From a virus: a DNA stretch of 44,371 bases. The stretch covers positions 1 through 44,371 of the IMG/VR virus record IMGVR_UViG_3300044614_000605; one strand, 5' to 3'. The position numbers were made by a program, and so were the translations under genes. The notes beneath the pieces are model-generated. The model did not search any database. It saw only the letters and a program-made list of their open reading frames with translations, and was not told the origin of the DNA. Shown one piece after another: positions 21,454-35,408 of this stretch. The stretch's first letter is position 1, and each line of letters starts with the position of its first letter.

Positions 21454-23790
21454 TTAGCAGAAGAAATACTTGGAGTCTTTGACCGACTCCAGATCTAGGG
21501 TGTTTTTAATCAAGCCTGCAGGGACCTCAACTCCCCTATCCGCTGCCCAGTTGGACAGGATGGGTTGGGAGTAGATCTCTACAAACTTCTCTCTAATTAG
21601 TGATCCAAGCTCATCAAGGTCACAAGACCGAGCTAATACACAGTCGTGAATGACTGCGATGGGGTTGGCCCATTCATTACCAACCTTATGGATCAGGGTT
21701 GAATCGAGCGCATGGACCAGATTTGGCGCACTTGCTGAGATGTGATGCTTATGGTCTGGCTCCCCAAAGCCATCGGCAACAACCGTCTTGATTGTTGAAC
21801 CCATAAGTTGTGTTTTAATCCTCTTCGTCAGGGAAACCCGTAGGTCCTGAATGAAGGGGAATCCTGATGGAGTGATGTAGGTCAACTCCGTCGCCCCATT
21901 GGCTAGGGCGTGTTTAACGGCTGATTGGATGAACTCCATACAGCCAGCCGGTCCAGGAAAGACAGCCGGAACTGCTTTGTTGTAGACGGCATTAGTGATC
22001 TCACTAAGGACGCCTTGTTCGCTGAGGTCCCTGCCCTGATCCAACAGAGCATCACGGATGTAACCCCGTGCCGAGTGACGTGACAGCCCGTAGCTGTAGC
22101 ACATACATACTCGTTTGGTGACCTTGCGGTTCAGCCAATCCCTCAGTTCAGGACGGATGTGCTGTTTGGCTTCCTCCGCAACGATGGCGTACCCATCCAC
22201 CGGCTTATCGGTAGGGGTGACGTTGACCATCGAAGCTGCCTTCCCATCCAGCGTTAGTGCTGAAAGGTGTTGGATGCCACTACATGTAGCGTCAATCCCA
22301 CAGGGGAGGCCTGAGGTTGTCTTGGTTTTCCGTAGGCAGCAAGCGTCATATTCGATTGCAGCCGCTAAGAAGGACCAAGGCTCGTCGGCTTTTTCCCAAA
22401 GGGAACGGAACTCAAGGGGATCAGACGCAACAGCCTGGATCAAATCGGTGTTGGATCTAGTCCAAGCAATCCGATCTTCCATGCTTGCCTTATCCAGACC
22501 CATCGTTGTGGCGCATGTAAATGCTAACCACCATTCATTGATGGGACCTTCCTCATCAAACAGGAAAAGACTCTTATCGAAGTCAGTCCCTTGAGGACAG
22601 AGGCTTGTGACTACATAATAAATTCTTCCCCGATAGTCAAAACTTGCGGGATAGTAGAAGGCATCATCCTTGTACTTGTTAGCAACAAAGAGCGTCTCCG
22701 CTGTCCTGTAGTTCTTCTGTTCCAGAGAAGCGTTGTAGTCGTAGATCTGAGTGGCTTGGACCTTCCACTCCTTGATCTCCTCTGGGCTCAGCTCCCCCTG
22801 AGGCATTGGGGGAACTGGCACAGGGTCTTCAGCACGAAACTTACCAATGCTGATGCGATGCTCAAAGCAATGGTTGGCAACCTCAAGGATCTTGGGGTTA
22901 ATCCGAAAGGCCACCTTCTGCAAGCGGTTAAGCATGTCGAGGGCTTCTGTGCCCTTCAAACATGGTCCTGATTTCAGATCCCGCCTAGCTCTGACAAGCG
23001 TTGTCGTGCGGCGGAGTTCAGAGGTGAGGTATCCCCCGCCTCGTTCTGACTCCCCATCCCAGTCGTTCGGCTCACAGAGCATTGGCCACTGACAAGCAGC
23101 GAAATGCTCAGCCCTCTCCAGCAGCTGCTGTTTAAGAGCTAGGAACTCCTCGCTAAAGACAATGACCTTCTCTCGCTTGCGAGCACTGCGTTGAATCAGC
23201 TTGGGGGCTAACCAATGTGTTGCTTGGGCAAGACAATCGACAAGGTACGCACCAACCTTGAACTTTTCAACACGAGACCAGTTATCCCACTTGATACCCT
23301 TGCGCTTCATGTAGAAGCTGAAGTTGTAAGCCTTCTGCCGGGTGCCAGTGGTGTGTTTGAAATGTTGGGCGATGCTGTCGTAAAGGTTTGGGGCCTGGAT
23401 CCGAAGATGTGTGATCTTCAGTTCGTCATGCACCGCATCACCAACACGGTCACAGAGCTGTCCATAGGCAGGTGAAACCTCTTTACCAAATAGGTCAAGG
23501 CAACACTTAGCCGTGATAACTGCAAGCACTTCAGGATCAGCATCTCTCATCTTATAGGCAATGACAGCATTAACGCCGCACTGACCATTCAAGGCTCGAT
23601 GTACCGTATCCCGAATCTTTTGAGCAGTTAGCTCTATCGAAGCCTCAACCATCGGTTTACCGTAGACGGTAGATGATGCGTAAGACTTATCCTCAGCCGC
23701 ACGAGTTCGGGCGATCAAACGCGCCTTGGCTTCAGCCTTTGACTCCAGTTCGCGTTGATATTGCCGCTCAATAAGGGCAGTTGTTGGCAT
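21454..23790 (-). CDS. DNA-directed RNA polymerase, single subunit (T7 gp1-like)
   Basis: The 778-residue phage RNA polymerase (T7: 883). Catalytic residues are D500 (GIDATCSGIQHLSAL), K559 and Y567 (KRVCMCYSYG), and H715-D716 (IAVIHDC). It transcribes middle and late genes from phage promoters. The ATG at 23790 follows a 300-base leader with a minus-strand terminator (23860-23885) and one early-region palindrome (23834-23845), so its expression probably depends on readthrough or a promoter close by. Confidence 0.97.
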   Translation of the reverse strand: MPTTALIERQYQRELESKAEAKARLIARTRAAEDKSYASSTVYGKPMVEASIELTAQKIRDTVHRALNGQCGVNAVIAYKMRDADPEVLAVITAKCCLDLFGKEVSPAYGQLCDRVGDAVHDELKITHLRIQAPNLYDSIAQHFKHTTGTRQKAYNFSFYMKRKGIKWDNWSRVEKFKVGAYLVDCLAQATHWLAPKLIQRSARKREKVIVFSEEFLALKQQLLERAEHFAACQWPMLCEPNDWDGESERGGGYLTSELRRTTTLVRARRDLKSGPCLKGTEALDMLNRLQKVAFRINPKILEVANHCFEHRISIGKFRAEDPVPVPPMPQGELSPEEIKEWKVQATQIYDYNASLEQKNYRTAETLFVANKYKDDAFYYPASFDYRGRIYYVVTSLCPQGTDFDKSLFLFDEEGPINEWWLAFTCATTMGLDKASMEDRIAWTRSNTDLIQAVASDPLEFRSLWEKADEPWSFLAAAIEYDACCLRKTKTTSGLPCGIDATCSGIQHLSALTLDGKAASMVNVTPTDKPVDGYAIVAEEAKQHIRPELRDWLNRKVTKRVCMCYSYGLSRHSARGYIRDALLDQGRDLSEQGVLSEITNAVYNKAVPAVFPGPAGCMEFIQSAVKHALANGATELTYITPSGFPFIQDLRVSLTKRIKTQLMGSTIKTVVADGFGEPDHKHHISASAPNLVHALDSTLIHKVGNEWANPIAVIHDCVLARSCDLDELGSLIREKFVEIYSQPILSNWAADRGVEVPAGLIKNTLDLESVKDSKYFFC

Positions 23791-24106: not shown

Positions 24107-24188
24107 GCGGTTGTGGCGGAATTGGTAGACGCGCATGTTTCAGGTACATGTGTCTTCGGACGTGGGAGTTCAAGTCTCCCCAACCGCA
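24107..24188 (+). tRNA. tRNA-Leu (anticodon CAG)
   Basis: A complete 82-base tRNA, the only plus-strand gene. The acceptor stem GCGGTTG/CAACCGC is fully paired and the D arm is GCGGAATTGGTAGACGC. The anticodon stem CATGT/ACATG has loop TTCAGGT, with CAG at 24141-24143. The long variable arm is GTC-TTCG-GAC and the T arm is GGGAG-TTCAAGT-CTCCC. CCA is not encoded. It lies 23 bases from the integrase 3' end and converges with it. Marine cyanopodoviruses carry a tRNA-Leu fragment here as the likely attachment site; this one is intact and may be both attP and a functional tRNA. Confidence 0.95.
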
Positions 24189-24211: not shown

Positions 24212-25093
24212 TCAGACAGCGGAGAGACCGTCGATAGCAGCCCTAAGAGACTTGTCAGTAGCATGGCAGTACCTCATGGTTGTAGAAATGTCCTTGTGCC
24301 CGCATAGGGCTTGAACGGCTTTTGGCGAGGCGTGTTCACCTAGCCAGGTCGCAAAACTGTGACGCAGGCAGTGGAAGACATACTTCTCGTCAAAGCCTGA
24401 GTAATCCCTTACTCGCTTGTACCAATAATTAACGGAGTCATAGCTCCCCCAGTCCTGGCCAAAGACCTTTTCCTCCCTAGCCCGTCCTGCAACGCGCTTC
24501 ATGAGCATGGACTCAATTCGCTCATTGATGGGGATGTGCCGGACCTCGTTACCTTTGGTCTCCCTACCCTTCATCCCACCAACCCAGATCAGGTTGCTTC
24601 CGAAGTCCACATCCATAACCCGAAGCTTGAGGATTTCAGTGATACGACAGCCTGAGTAGGCCGCGAAAGCAATGACATCAGCAAGATCAGGCTTATCGAA
24701 GGGATCAACTGAGTTGTAGATCAGTCTCTCTACCTCATCGCGTGTGAAGTAAAGGTAACGACTTTTACCCTCCTTGAACTTGAAGATCTTGGGGAAGCGG
24801 CCAGTGATGGTGGTTTTGTCATCATCAATAACCGTCCTCAAGACAGTGCTACCGGCGCTTGTGACGCGATTGCAGGTCGTGTCAGTCCAGAGAGGGTGGC
24901 TATCAAGCAACTCATAGGCAAGCTGCTTCCAGAAGCCGTGAGTCATCATGTCCTTCAGGGGGAAGCCCTTGCCAAGGTGCTCCAAGACATGACCTGAGTT
25001 GATCAGGTTGGTGCTCATGGACTTCCCCTTCTTCCACCGAAAGTCGATGGTGTATTGGAGAGCGTCACCGAACGTGGTGATGTACTTAGGCAT
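24212..25093 (-). CDS. int: Tyrosine recombinase / integrase
   Basis: A 293-residue site-specific recombinase with the full catalytic set: Arg in YSGCRITEILKL, a Lys in the following beta turn (KGRETKGN), HCLRHSFATWL (HxxR), the His in CGHKDIS and the nucleophilic Tyr in TTMRYCHATD. The first 130 or so residues form the arm-type or core-binding domain. It is adjacent to tRNA-Leu and to a MarR-like protein, the layout seen in P-SSP7-type cyanophages. Integration into a host tRNA-Leu gene is inferred, and lysogeny has rarely been shown for such phages. Confidence 0.93.
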   Translation of the reverse strand: MPKYITTFGDALQYTIDFRWKKGKSMSTNLINSGHVLEHLGKGFPLKDMMTHGFWKQLAYELLDSHPLWTDTTCNRVTSAGSTVLRTVIDDDKTTITGRFPKIFKFKEGKSRYLYFTRDEVERLIYNSVDPFDKPDLADVIAFAAYSGCRITEILKLRVMDVDFGSNLIWVGGMKGRETKGNEVRHIPINERIESMLMKRVAGRAREEKVFGQDWGSYDSVNYWYKRVRDYSGFDEKYVFHCLRHSFATWLGEHASPKAVQALCGHKDISTTMRYCHATDKSLRAAIDGLSAV

Positions 25094-25165: not shown

Positions 25166-25522
25166 TTAAACCTCTGGGTAGAGTTGTGCTTTCAGGTTTG
25201 CAACTACGGCTTGGCCAAGACGAGTCAATAAGACGTTCTTGGCCCTGTGATCTACTACATCCTGGCGCTTAATGACCCACCCCAGAGGCTTGTGATTCTT
25301 GTACTGTCCGTCCGATAGCCAGTTCACCATATGGGTGACAGCAGCGGAGGTCATACCAAGACCCTTACCTATGTCGTCCAGCCTGCAGCCGTTGTGTGCA
25401 GCAATGAACAAGAAGACTTTTAGAAGCTGGGGTGTGAAGTCCGCACACTCAGATGCAAAAAAGGTAACCGCCCGGAAGAGCGGCTCCATCTCTGGATCTG
25501 TGAGCGTGGGACCCTTAGGCAC
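25166..25522 (-). CDS. MarR-like winged-helix transcriptional regulator
   Basis: A 118-residue protein with a helix-turn-helix (CRLDDIGKGLGMTSAAVTHMVNWL) and a wing (GWVIKRQDVVDHRAKNVLLTRLGQAVV), the MarR arrangement. Cyanopodoviruses often carry a MarR-like gene near integrase and RNA polymerase. It is a candidate to bind the palindromes scattered through the early region, two of which flank its own gene (25106 and 25569). The binding is inference. Confidence 0.75.
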   Translation of the reverse strand: MPKGPTLTDPEMEPLFRAVTFFASECADFTPQLLKVFLFIAAHNGCRLDDIGKGLGMTSAAVTHMVNWLSDGQYKNHKPLGWVIKRQDVVDHRAKNVLLTRLGQAVVANLKAQLYPEV

Positions 25523-28842: not shown

Positions 28843-28977
28843 GGTGTCTTTGGTTGTCTGTGGGCAGGTGAGACAGCAGCACAGGGCCGCGTCTCATGCA
28901 CCTAAGGTAGCCCTCTCGCTTGCCCTTGGGCAGGGATGCAGCAAGATCGTCACAACTCGTAACAGAGAACAGACATA

Positions 28978-29506: not shown

Positions 29507-29757
29507 GATACGAATCCGTATTAGGGCGGACAGATCCTCTGATGTATATATCAGGAATGAGAATCATTCTCAGTACGAAGAAGGCATTGAGTTGGGATAA
29601 ACAACTCCCCCATTAGATCCTTGAACTACTGAAGAGCCTTGCAGCGCAATGGTTCCCAGGGTTTGAGTCTGCTAGGGCCTGCAAAAAGCAAGACCCCCCA
29701 CCCCCCAGGACCCCCCATACGGGGGAAGCAGAGCGTCAGCCCCCAGCGTTAAAGGGT
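29507..29757. other. Non-coding segment between the Zn-ribbon protein and the next early gene
   Basis: About 251 bases. Apart from the promoter/operator, the minus strand has three nearby G6 runs (29694-29716) and a CCCCC-GTAT-GGGGG hairpin (29711-29725), possibly a G-quadruplex or a terminator-like structure for the 67-residue gene. I see no gene. Confidence 0.5.
29545..29573 (-). promoter_or_regulatory. Candidate host-type promoter with a Fur-box-like operator
   Basis: On the minus strand a -35-like CTGAGA (29573-29568), a 17-base spacer and an extended -10, TGA-TATATA (29550-29545), point at the gene starting at 29506. Within and across the spacer lies the perfect 7-1-7 palindrome TGAGAATCATTCTCA (29558-29572), which matches the bacterial Fur-box form. 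Repressor binding there would block the promoter. Both hexamers match the consensus at only four of six bases. Confidence 0.6.
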
Positions 29758-29961
29758 TCAGAAATTTCTCCCAAAATCTCGGGACCCAAACCGCTCATAG
29801 CAAGCAGGACACATCAACTTCCCCGTCTGTAAGCCCCCACAAGAGGCTCTAACGAAGTGATACACCCCACACGACCCACACACACCCCAATCGACCTTAG
29901 AGGGGCTTCTAGGGGCCTCTGAGAGGCTTATAGGTTCATCCCTGTCATAGCTGTTGTTCAT
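29758..29961 (-). CDS. Small zinc-ribbon protein
   Basis: A 67-residue protein with two CxxC pairs (WGVCGSCG and LMCPACYERFG) about 20 residues apart, enough for one zinc ribbon. It overlaps the end of thyX. A DNA- or RNA-binding role is likely but not shown. Confidence 0.68.
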   Translation of the reverse strand: MNNSYDRDEPISLSEAPRSPSKVDWGVCGSCGVYHFVRASCGGLQTGKLMCPACYERFGSRDFGRNF

Positions 29962-30589
29962 GGAGCAAGTTCTTAATAGCTGGTAGTTGTTGAGAAAGGA
30001 TCTGTCTCACCTCTTCCGCAATCACCCGATGTTCAAGCTGGGTAGACGGATCACAACGGACCTGGCAGTAATGGATGTATGACCTGATAGAGCCGGATAA
30101 GTAGAGACGGCTCGGAGAGGCCAAAGGCAGGACACTCCTTGCACACTCCTTAGCAACCCCATTGGAGACCATCTCTCGATAGAGGTCATCAGACTCAGCG
30201 AATAGGGAGGCAATACGACGGAGGTAGATAGCCCTCTTCTCCCCATCAAGATCATCAATGGAGTTCTGTCTGTTCTTGAGGTCTTGCCGTCTCAATGCAG
30301 GAATTACGGGACTTCCAATGCAGGTAACATCGGCATAACGCTGAGAGAACTCCTGTATCGCAAAGCTCCTATGACGAATGATCTGAGCAGCTATAGCCCT
30401 AGTGGTATTGATCTCGATGACCATATGAGCCATCTCAAAGGGAGACCAATGTTTGTGGGTAATCAGATACCGTAGCAACTTCTCCTCAGTATCCAAGTTC
30501 TGTTGGTTACTGGGATTAGATACTCTGGCACAGTAAGCGATAAGGTGTTGAGCATCAGGGGTAATAGAGACGAGGGATACAGCAGACAT
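29945..30589 (-). CDS. thyX: Flavin-dependent thymidylate synthase
   Basis: A 214-residue enzyme from the ATG at 30589. The ThyX signature RHRX7S is present (R72 H73 R74 ... S82), followed by QRY. The extended motif differs from the usual form: RHRSFAIQEFSQRY has Ala and Gln where RHRxxSxNExSxRY has Ser and Asn. It makes dTMP from dUMP with FAD and methylene-tetrahydrofolate and is common in cyanophages. It is the first gene of the genome in transcription order. Confidence 0.92.
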   Translation of the reverse strand: MSAVSLVSITPDAQHLIAYCARVSNPSNQQNLDTEEKLLRYLITHKHWSPFEMAHMVIEINTTRAIAAQIIRHRSFAIQEFSQRYADVTCIGSPVIPALRRQDLKNRQNSIDDLDGEKRAIYLRRIASLFAESDDLYREMVSNGVAKECARSVLPLASPSRLYLSGSIRSYIHYCQVRCDPSTQLEHRVIAEEVRQILSQQLPAIKNLLHEQQL

Positions 30590-30786
30590 AACTCGATGCG
30601 GTGATAGACCTAAAGAACTCTTACCCAATAGCACTAATAACAAACATATCAATACCAATAGAGAAGAGAATACCTAGGACCAATAGCAGATCAGGCATAC
30701 GGTGATACGACGATAGGTCTTAGTACATAACCCCCATAGCAGCTATAGCATGATTGAAGGAGGTAGATAGGTAGGTTATTATGATG

Positions 30787-31636: not shown

Positions 31637-33376
31637 TCAGATCCAAGACTGGATACGGGGTTTAGCCCCTTTAGCCATCTGGTCTGGGGTAGCTCCTAGG
31701 ACGAGGAGGTTGGTGGCCTGTTGGGGGTCATTGAGGAAGGCAGAGACGACTTGCTTCCACTCCTCCCGCTTACGTTCAACCATCTCCTGCTGCGCCGACA
31801 GGGCTACAGCATCCAGGAAGTACTTACACCCCAGAGCCAGACCATCCAATCTGTCATCGTGCTTGAGGGCTCCCTTCTCACGGCAGATACGGGAGAACTG
31901 GTAGGCCAGCATGTATTGGAGTCTTAGCTCCGGTGGGTCTTCGGGGTTAGATCTGTAGTCCCAATCAATCACCTTTGGGTCTATGACGAGACGGTGTTGA
32001 TTCAGGAGAGGTTCAAGGGTATCAATGATCCTCTCTTCCTTACGGGTAGTAGACCTTACCTCTTCAAAGTCAATAGCAACCTTCATCTCGATTGCATGTC
32101 TCTTCATCAGCTCTGAGATCATGCCATCACCGAAGTTGGTCTCCACCAGGATTTTGGTTGCCTTATGGGACCGACAGCCGGAAAGGATCTGACGAAGGGT
32201 ATTGTCTGAATAGCCATCCTTAAAGGCCTTGATCTCTCGGACGTAGATCAGACCATTGAGCTGAGAGAGGTAGACCGCGACCGTTTCATCAAGACCCCTA
32301 CCGGATGGGTCTACAGCGCAGATGGTCTCTGAGTAGGGCCTGTAGTCCCCTTGAAGGGCCATTGGGGCGTAATACCTATCTCCGGGTAGACCAACCGCCG
32401 GAAGCTCCTTGTAGACGTTCCTAGGGTCACTAGACCAAACGATGTTCTCGGGGCCTTGGTCTGGGTTGACGGGGGTAACGATGAGGTCTTGGAACTTGAG
32501 GGGGAACTTCTCCGCATCAGACAGAGAGGTATCCAGCATGAACTGGAGCATGAAGTTGCTCCGGCCCATTGCTGCCTCACGTTCAATGAGGTCAAAGTCT
32601 GAGAAGCGGGTATCGGTCGGAGTCCAACTAAGGCTCTCTAACCCCTTGTCATCTATGTCTTGCTCAAGCTCAGGGGCTAGAAAGCCCTCATACCCGGAGA
32701 CCTTCCTTGGGTATCGAGCAGGCCAGACAAAAGGTTTGTAGGACCTCTCAGCCAGCTTCCGATAGATGGAGAAGACGCTCTGGGGAGTCCCTAGGAACAT
32801 GATTCGGGAGTTCCCTTCAGGGATGAGGATGGCTTCTGCCTCCGTCACCAGTTGAAGGAGCTTCTCCCGTTGCATGTCTGTGGCGGAGTTACCAGGCACC
32901 TCCACGTCATCGAAAATCAGGAGGTTGGCTCGGGAGCCTGTCATCTGACCAGTGATACCAACGCTTTTGACGCTTGGAGCTTGGTGGGGTTTAGCCGGTC
33001 CAACATCAAAGGAGATCCGAGACCAACGTTGATCGTCTGACCTCGGCTGTAGGTGACCTAGCCAAGCGATATCAAGGATCAGCTTCTGACAGAAGATGGA
33101 GAAGTTATCAGCACGTTCTTTCGATGCTGAGATAACCATGATCTTCTGGTCTGGGTCTTTGAATAGGGTCCAAAGCACAAAGGCTGCTGTGATCCAGCTT
33201 TTACCCACACCCCGGAAGGCGGAGATCTGTAATCGCTTAGGTCCGTGCTGGAGATACTTGGCAATAGCAAGCTGAGCACGGGTAGGCTGAGGGAGACCTA
33301 GTTCATTCCATACAGCAGCAAGGAAGAATCTAAAGTCCCCCTCTAAACGGTCTAGAACCGCCTTATTCTTACTCAT
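31637..33376 (-). CDS. Terminase large subunit (T7 gp19-like)
   Basis: A 579-residue packaging motor from the ATG at 33376 (T7 gp19: 586). Walker A is ISAFRGVGKSW, Walker B is LLIFDDVEVPGNSAT, and the nuclease domain starts with CAVDPSGRGLDET and has VETNFGDGM. A TTG at 33394 would add six residues. It packages DNA and cuts concatemers. An HNH gene lies directly upstream. Confidence 0.95.
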   Translation of the reverse strand: MSKNKAVLDRLEGDFRFFLAAVWNELGLPQPTRAQLAIAKYLQHGPKRLQISAFRGVGKSWITAAFVLWTLFKDPDQKIMVISASKERADNFSIFCQKLILDIAWLGHLQPRSDDQRWSRISFDVGPAKPHQAPSVKSVGITGQMTGSRANLLIFDDVEVPGNSATDMQREKLLQLVTEAEAILIPEGNSRIMFLGTPQSVFSIYRKLAERSYKPFVWPARYPRKVSGYEGFLAPELEQDIDDKGLESLSWTPTDTRFSDFDLIEREAAMGRSNFMLQFMLDTSLSDAEKFPLKFQDLIVTPVNPDQGPENIVWSSDPRNVYKELPAVGLPGDRYYAPMALQGDYRPYSETICAVDPSGRGLDETVAVYLSQLNGLIYVREIKAFKDGYSDNTLRQILSGCRSHKATKILVETNFGDGMISELMKRHAIEMKVAIDFEEVRSTTRKEERIIDTLEPLLNQHRLVIDPKVIDWDYRSNPEDPPELRLQYMLAYQFSRICREKGALKHDDRLDGLALGCKYFLDAVALSAQQEMVERKREEWKQVVSAFLNDPQQATNLLVLGATPDQMAKGAKPRIQSWI

Positions 33377-33434
33377 AGGTATAGAGACACCCAAAGGAGG
33401 GCATAGAGACCTTGCAGAGCCTTCTAAAGGCCTC

Positions 33435-34438: not shown

Positions 34439-35408
34439 GTTCAGTAAAGAGACGAATTAACTTGGCGGCATATTCGGGATCAGTGGCGTACTTCTCAACA
34501 ACCAATAGTCGGGCACACTCTTCAGGGGACGAAGCTCTGTTGACACCTTTATAGCCTTTGTAATCCTTGTACCACTTGGTGACGAGATCCTCTACGCAGG
34601 CATAGAGACTGTCGTAGTTCTTGAACCAGGCGTCGGTTTTGATCTCCATGCCCCCGACGAACTCAGTGGTACGAACGAGGGTCCCTTCACCGTCCTTGCC
34701 TTTAAGACCAAAGTAGTTGTTCCTACCAGAGGTGTGTTTACCCCAGCCGCTCTCCAATGCCCATTGAGCAGCAACGACTTGTGGGAACTTAGCTCCAGCA
34801 CGTTCAGCGCAAGCTTTCACTCCCTTCCAGGTGTTCTCTACGGGAGCTTCTGGTTGCGGTGTAGTGGTGGGGCGGAAGCTCATGAACCATCCAGTCCCCC
34901 GACCTTCTACTTCCCAACGTGGTAGCCAGTTCTTCCAAGAGTAGCGAACGTCTTTACCACCACGTCCGATGGTGACATAACCACCGTTGACGTTATCCAT
35001 CTCACCATATGGATCGTGGAAGACACCATGCTCTCCAGTGTCACCGATGAGTAGCATCCAATGTCCGCCACCAACGGGTTTGGAGACGTGACCTTTGTGG
35101 AGGATGCCTGTTGCTACGGGGTAGCCTGCCTTAAGTTCGTTGATGAGTGTCTGCCTAGTACCTTTTGTGTAAAAGGAAGCAAACACTCCGTACTGCTGAC
35201 AGGCTTTGATTTGACTGGTAGATGAGGTTGTGTCACCGTATTTGAGAACAGTTCTCAAGTAATCATCATCAGCATTACTACCCTTCAGCGCATCAGGACG
35301 GAGATATTTAACCGCCATCGCGCAGGTGGAACTCCAGCACATCCTGTCGCCATGTCGCGTAGCAGAGTCCGTCTGAAGATAGTATTGAGCGACTCTAAGT
35401 ATTGTCAT
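34431..35408 (-). CDS. Endolysin with C39-like peptidase and glucosaminidase domains
   Basis: A 325-residue lysis enzyme from the ATG at 35408. Residues 1-180 look like a C39-type papain-like peptidase, with Cys24 (RMCWSSTCAMA), His116 (GGGHWMLLIG) and Asp132 (HDPYGE). Residues 195-325 look like an FlgJ-type glucosaminidase/muramidase with Glu219 (WALESGWGKH) and NYFGLKGK. It would cut both peptide and glycan parts of peptidoglycan. T7's own amidase (gp3.5) has a different fold and place. It overlaps the HNH gene by 14 bases. Confidence 0.88.
   Translation of the reverse strand: MTILRVAQYYLQTDSATRHGDRMCWSSTCAMAVKYLRPDALKGSNADDDYLRTVLKYGDTTSSTSQIKACQQYGVFASFYTKGTRQTLINELKAGYPVATGILHKGHVSKPVGGGHWMLLIGDTGEHGVFHDPYGEMDNVNGGYVTIGRGGKDVRYSWKNWLPRWEVEGRGTGWFMSFRPTTTPQPEAPVENTWKGVKACAERAGAKFPQVVAAQWALESGWGKHTSGRNNYFGLKGKDGEGTLVRTTEFVGGMEIKTDAWFKNYDSLYACVEDLVTKWYKDYKGYKGVNRASSPEECARLLVVEKYATDPEYAAKLIRLFTEHE

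Follow-up and report, generated by a model that had tools for sequence, protein, structure and literature searches.

Host regulators at phage promoters

In phages of Alphaproteobacteria, sites for the host cell-cycle regulator CtrA stand in clusters at genome ends and promoters in several lineages, where they are often gained or lost and have been connected with 'lytic deferment' (PMC9437464). In the tectivirus GIL01, a host repressor, LexA, likewise acts on the phage's lysogenic promoter, in response to the SOS signal and together with the phage co-repressor gp7 (PMC4551915, PMC6182141). T7-like cyanophages integrate into host tRNA-Leu, yet no repressor has been recognised in them, and those that were tested did not form stable lysogens (PMC8776855); a MarR-integrase module has been described in LUZ100 and P-SSP7 (PMC10134795, PMC9692554). 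The canonical Zur regulon consists of COG0523 and znuABC (PMC6103462), and in marine Synechococcus WH8102 the SynZur regulon comprises eight genes, with zinc-gene targets, boxes that overlap promoters and no phage target. Repression by Zn-Zur through overlap with promoter elements is established there for znuA, and bmtA is one known case of Zur activation (PMC9337993).

The locus analysed here lies in a viral stretch of 44,371 bases (IMG/VR record IMGVR_UViG_3300044614_000605; hereafter the window), in which a box of the same type as those of the WH8102 regulon, likewise overlapping a predicted promoter, stands at a phage early promoter. Compared with the CtrA sites, which answer to a cell-cycle regulator and form clusters, the box here has a metal sensor as its presumed reader and is present once or twice, and binding is predicted; compared with GIL01, the signal would be zinc, with no known co-repressor. 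The module of LUZ100 and P-SSP7 is present in the window phage as well, but the box occurs independently of the presence of a MarR gene. The open-access literature yielded no paper linking Zur or zinc to cyanophage promoters, and although CtrA and LexA offer precedents for sites of host regulators in phage promoters, the extension to zinc and Zur appears to be new.

Zinc in the open ocean is scarce and strongly variable. A Zur site in phage early promoters would tie this trace metal to virus replication in very abundant primary producers, would let the virus make the onset of its programme depend on the zinc state of the host, and would offer a candidate for the control of lysis and integration that is missing in T7-like cyanophages.

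The virus and its predicted early promoter

All genes of the window lie on the minus strand and include, in T7 order, those for an RNA polymerase (RNAP), primase/helicase, polymerase and terminase large subunit (TerL), as expected of a T7-like cyanophage (Autographiviridae), together with ThyX, an integrase and a MarR-like protein; no Fur-family protein is encoded in the window. The phage is placed among the cyanopodoviruses, since the named polymerases nearest to its own come from cyanophages SS120-1, S-CBP42 and Syn5 (46-49%). A near-match search with 5 kb of the phage DNA gave no match. The T7-like RNAP (21454-23790) closes the early region, and between it and the tyrosine integrase (24212-25093) lies a complete tRNA-Leu(CAG) on the plus strand, opposite to the genes (24107-24188), which is likely to be attP. 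The virus is regarded as a T7-like Synechococcus phage with an integrase and a putative tRNA-Leu attachment site.

The sequence TGAGAATCATTCTCA at 29558-29572 forms a perfect 7-1-7 inverted repeat (TGAGAATSATTCTCA on the minus strand), exactly where the original prediction had placed it. Such palindromes are not rare as such, seven being observed in the window against 3.05 expected per random window. The repeat also has the form of the classical Fur (iron) box of E. coli, TGATAATNATTATCA, which it matches at 13 of 15 positions; about 0.1 sites with at most two mismatches to this form are expected per window of the same composition, and a palindrome that also met the match was found in none of 100 random windows. 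When read as a 23-mer, in the register of the cyanobacterial Zur consensus (NTNANAATGATNATCATTNTNAN, published and quoted in PMC9337993), the minus-strand site at 29551-29573 agrees at 13 of 16 positions, the best score in the window, and is the only site there within three mismatches of this consensus.

On the minus strand, the -35-like hexamer CTGAGA (29573-29568, 4/6) overlaps the box and is followed, after a 17-base spacer, by the extended -10 element TGA-TATATA (29553-29545), with a predicted start near 29538, so that the box lies across the predicted -35 element and the spacer. This architecture is as originally described, and the central claim of a Fur-family-type box overlapping a phage promoter is borne out. 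The promoter itself is plausible but of moderate quality, its -35 element being weak, and it was not listed by a sigma-70 scan, which missed it owing to the A at the sixth position of the -10 element. An imperfect inverted repeat, TGATGTATATATCA, spans the -10 element (29540-29553) and may represent a second half-site. Immediately upstream of the control region lies thyX (29945-30658), and terL (31637-33394) stands on its late side; the first ORF downstream (29506-29171) codes for a small protein (phrog_16742). The assignment of this ORF as an early gene is less certain than proposed, its homologue lying on the late side in some relatives, adjoining terL or thyX. With this reservation, there is good support for a Fur-family box within an early promoter of the phage.

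A look-alike perfect palindrome, TGAGAACAGTTCTCA, at 35243-35257 within the endolysin gene was rejected as an operator; it is regarded as coding sequence because the endolysins of relatives keep the same residues, LRTVLK. Between genes of the early region, a short motif resembling a hairpin, CTGCCCATAGGCA / CTGCCCATAGACA, occurs in about ten copies, at approximate positions 28870, 28280-28260, 28075, 27497-27480, 27018, 26820, 25585, 25115 and 23845.

Recurrence of the box among T7-like cyanophages

Searches of IMG/VR with TerL and RNAP yielded 217 non-redundant contigs. All but one of them (216) could be oriented and were divided into an early region, from the end of terL to the start of the RNAP gene (493 kb in all), and the remainder, three times longer (1.51 Mb). 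Sites within one mismatch of TGAGAATCATTCTCA numbered ten in the early regions and none elsewhere, compared with means of 0.2 and 0.36, respectively, for 25 palindromes with permuted arms; within two mismatches, the counts were 24 and 7. The published Zur consensus behaved in the same manner, with 12 early sites and none elsewhere at up to two mismatches, and 34 against 7 at up to three, where permuted versions of the consensus gave 5.3 and 10.1. The chance that all ten sites would fall in the early quarter at random is near 1e-6, a figure weakened by the relatedness of the contigs. This positional skew towards control regions across relatives, the recurrence that the original prediction had named as a check, resembles that of the CtrA-type sites, and the palindrome is no private accident of the window phage.

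Perfect 16/16 matches to the Zur consensus occur in contigs L541, L459 and L455, and two boxes are present in L459 and L487. The box is found at the same place as in the window in contigs L487, L492, L497 and L541, in the order terL, thyX, box, early genes, and in the cultured isolate S-RIP1 (host Synechococcus WH8101), whose box, TTGAGAATGGTTATCATTATTAT, agrees with the Zur consensus at 15 of 16 positions and directly follows TATATT, a predicted promoter element, ahead of the first early gene. A weaker variant stands at the same place in S-CBP2. Contigs L492, L497, L541 and L572 have AAAACATCTGT in common downstream of the box, whereas their wider flanks and half-sites differ. The centre base, a position not fixed by the search, is C or G in 88% of the early-region phage boxes and in all 12 host boxes described below. 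Some of the contig boxes overlap predicted ORFs.

Despite this recurrence, the box is a minority trait, scattered among relatives and often gained or lost, because only 20 of the 151 contigs with an early region above 1 kb carry it with at most two mismatches. About 87% of the relatives and most cultured isolates are without it: among 17 named phages checked, the first early promoter has a clear box in one (S-RIP1), a weak variant in one (S-CBP2) and none in 15, several of which are close by polymerase. This scarcity is what would be predicted if the palindrome were due to chance, and its position in the gap between terL and the early genes, where T7-like genomes have their ends, would suit a structural element for packaging or replication that no regulator reads. 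Against both stand the 10/0 and 12/0 distributions relative to the controls, the perfect Zur-consensus sites, the identical boxes in host promoters and the boxes beside marR-int, away from this gap; either origin is considered highly improbable.

The boxes beside marR-int, TGATAATCATTCTCA in the T7-like phage contigs L525 (L525:548) and L526 (L526:142), lie directly upstream of the marR-integrase operon. They raise the question of whether the box is the operator of the phage's own MarR-like protein (25166-25522, minus strand), a homologue of P-SSP7 gp0.7, and thus part of a phage lysogeny switch, in keeping with the position of the MarR-integrase operon next to the RNAP gene and with the proposal of MarR switches in T7-like phages (PMC10134795). 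However, the box does not track the presence or absence of a MarR gene: P-SSP7, S-CBP1 and S-CBP3 have the gene and lack the box, and in an integrated element of host genome G132 the box is present but a MarR gene was not detected. The MarR protein of P-SSP7 bound DNA at several sites, with no palindromic operator reported (PMC9692554), and the same box stands at zinc genes of the host, which makes a MarR operator quite unlikely.

The box in the host lineage

The tRNA-Leu of the window is matched at 81 of 82 positions in only 4 of 201 Synechococcaceae genomes in a similarity search, the others reaching 92% or less; on this basis, the host lineage is taken to be G045, G086, G110, G132 or their kin. 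The exact 82-base tRNA had no match in the genome contigs. The four matched genomes contain 12 boxes within one mismatch of the palindrome, which precede genes for cobW/COG0523 GTPases, znuA and its ABC-3 permease, and hupE-like genes; a few lie beside uncharacterised genes, and one is within a prophage-like element. In 1.6 of the 2.27 Mb of G045, the best site for the Zur consensus is the znuA promoter. The box is missing from the ZnuA paralogues with the highest scores and therefore belongs to a subset of paralogues. In other picocyanobacteria, TGAGAAYSRTTCTCA-type sites are found at znuA, cobW and a nearby WD40 gene. The likeness of the window box to the zinc-gene boxes of the matching hosts is, like its place and its recurrence there in relatives, a direct observation.

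Each host encodes three Fur-family proteins, and the designs of Fur and Zur boxes overlap, such that the match of 13 of 15 positions to the E. coli Fur box could point to reading by Fur (iron) or by PerR (peroxide). The host boxes within one mismatch stand at zinc genes, however, and the promoters of idiA, whose control by Fur in these hosts is assumed, carry no box in G045 and five other genomes (5-6 mismatches at best); IdiA was located in G045 by tblastn, a PF13343 match in the four hosts having been rejected as a different binding protein. Flavodoxin promoters showed no consistent box, few iron genes being examined in all. Zur is favoured over Fur because the zinc genes carry the box, idiA does not and the Zur consensus fits, perfectly so in some relatives. 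Reading by Fur or PerR is accordingly regarded as improbable, the original proposal of iron and Fur as the signal is not supported and probably wrong, and the metal sensed is probably zinc. Of the Fur-family proteins of the host, Zur is the likeliest reader of the box, a view that we hold with somewhat better than even confidence.

The identity of the phage box with the znuA/cobW box would also be expected of a decoy, by which replicating phage DNA would draw Zur off the host promoters and free znuABC and COG0523 for zinc supply, and the two boxes of L459 and L487 fit such titration. Regulation better explains why a genome usually has one or two sites and why these are placed on promoter elements, and titration seems a rather remote alternative.

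Proposed role of Zur

The explanation that we consider fairly probable is that of a predicted Zur site in the first promoter served by host sigma factor, at which Zn-Zur would repress when zinc is plentiful. In zinc-sufficient cells, Zn-Zur would cover the -35 element and the spacer and lower early transcription; under zinc scarcity, Zur would be released and the early genes expressed, that of the phage RNA polymerase last. Such an arrangement might serve to delay or gate lytic growth, or to control an integrated phage. Binding by Zur, its repressing sign and its biological purpose are what we infer from the site, repression being favoured because the box lies across the -35 element and the spacer. 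For a purely lytic phage, self-repression of the early genes in zinc-replete cells would be costly, which counts against the explanation, as do the lack of stable lysogeny in the T7-like cyanophages tested (PMC8776855), the three mismatches of the window site to the Zur consensus, the many relatives without a box and the overlap of some boxes with predicted ORFs. Zur might also act here as an activator, as it does at bmtA in WH8102.

A more speculative extension, which we regard as possible but doubtful, is that, in a subset of T7-like cyanophages, host Zur takes the part of the lytic repressor that is missing, so that the phage could stay integrated at tRNA-Leu while the cell is zinc-replete and would enter lysis upon zinc starvation.

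T7-like elements in host genomes

A T7-like element integrated in the marine Synechococcus genome G132 (L372, G132:C1:530000-549900) bears the exact palindrome TGAGAATCATTCTCA in its early region, in a gap followed downstream by a series of small genes and then by an integrase and a T7-like RNAP, although intact T7-like prophages are said not to occur. Besides this RNAP (25-28% to that of the window), the element has two tyrosine recombinases and numerous small genes, and it is probably a remnant or a satellite, because the region fetched around it shows no structural genes. If Zur did hold integrated phages in check, this element would be either a relic of such zinc-held integration or a resident case of it.

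T7-like RNAP sequences occur in 37 of 400 Synechococcaceae genomes, and several adjoin a tyrosine recombinase; these genes may belong to mobile islands or satellites. Most of the T7-like RNAP elements examined in Synechococcus genomes are without the box. In one contig (L410, G365:C8), dnaA and a pyrC-like gene are joined directly to a T7-like RNAP, ssb, an endonuclease and a primase, as would be found in either an integrated phage or a chimera; a site in it, TGAGAATAATTCTCT, was rejected as a phage promoter box, as it lies inside a bacterial coding gene. The exact sequence TGAGAATCATTCTCA also stands upstream of a gene for an AbrB-like regulator in Synechococcus UW140 (L221, G005:C26:20387).
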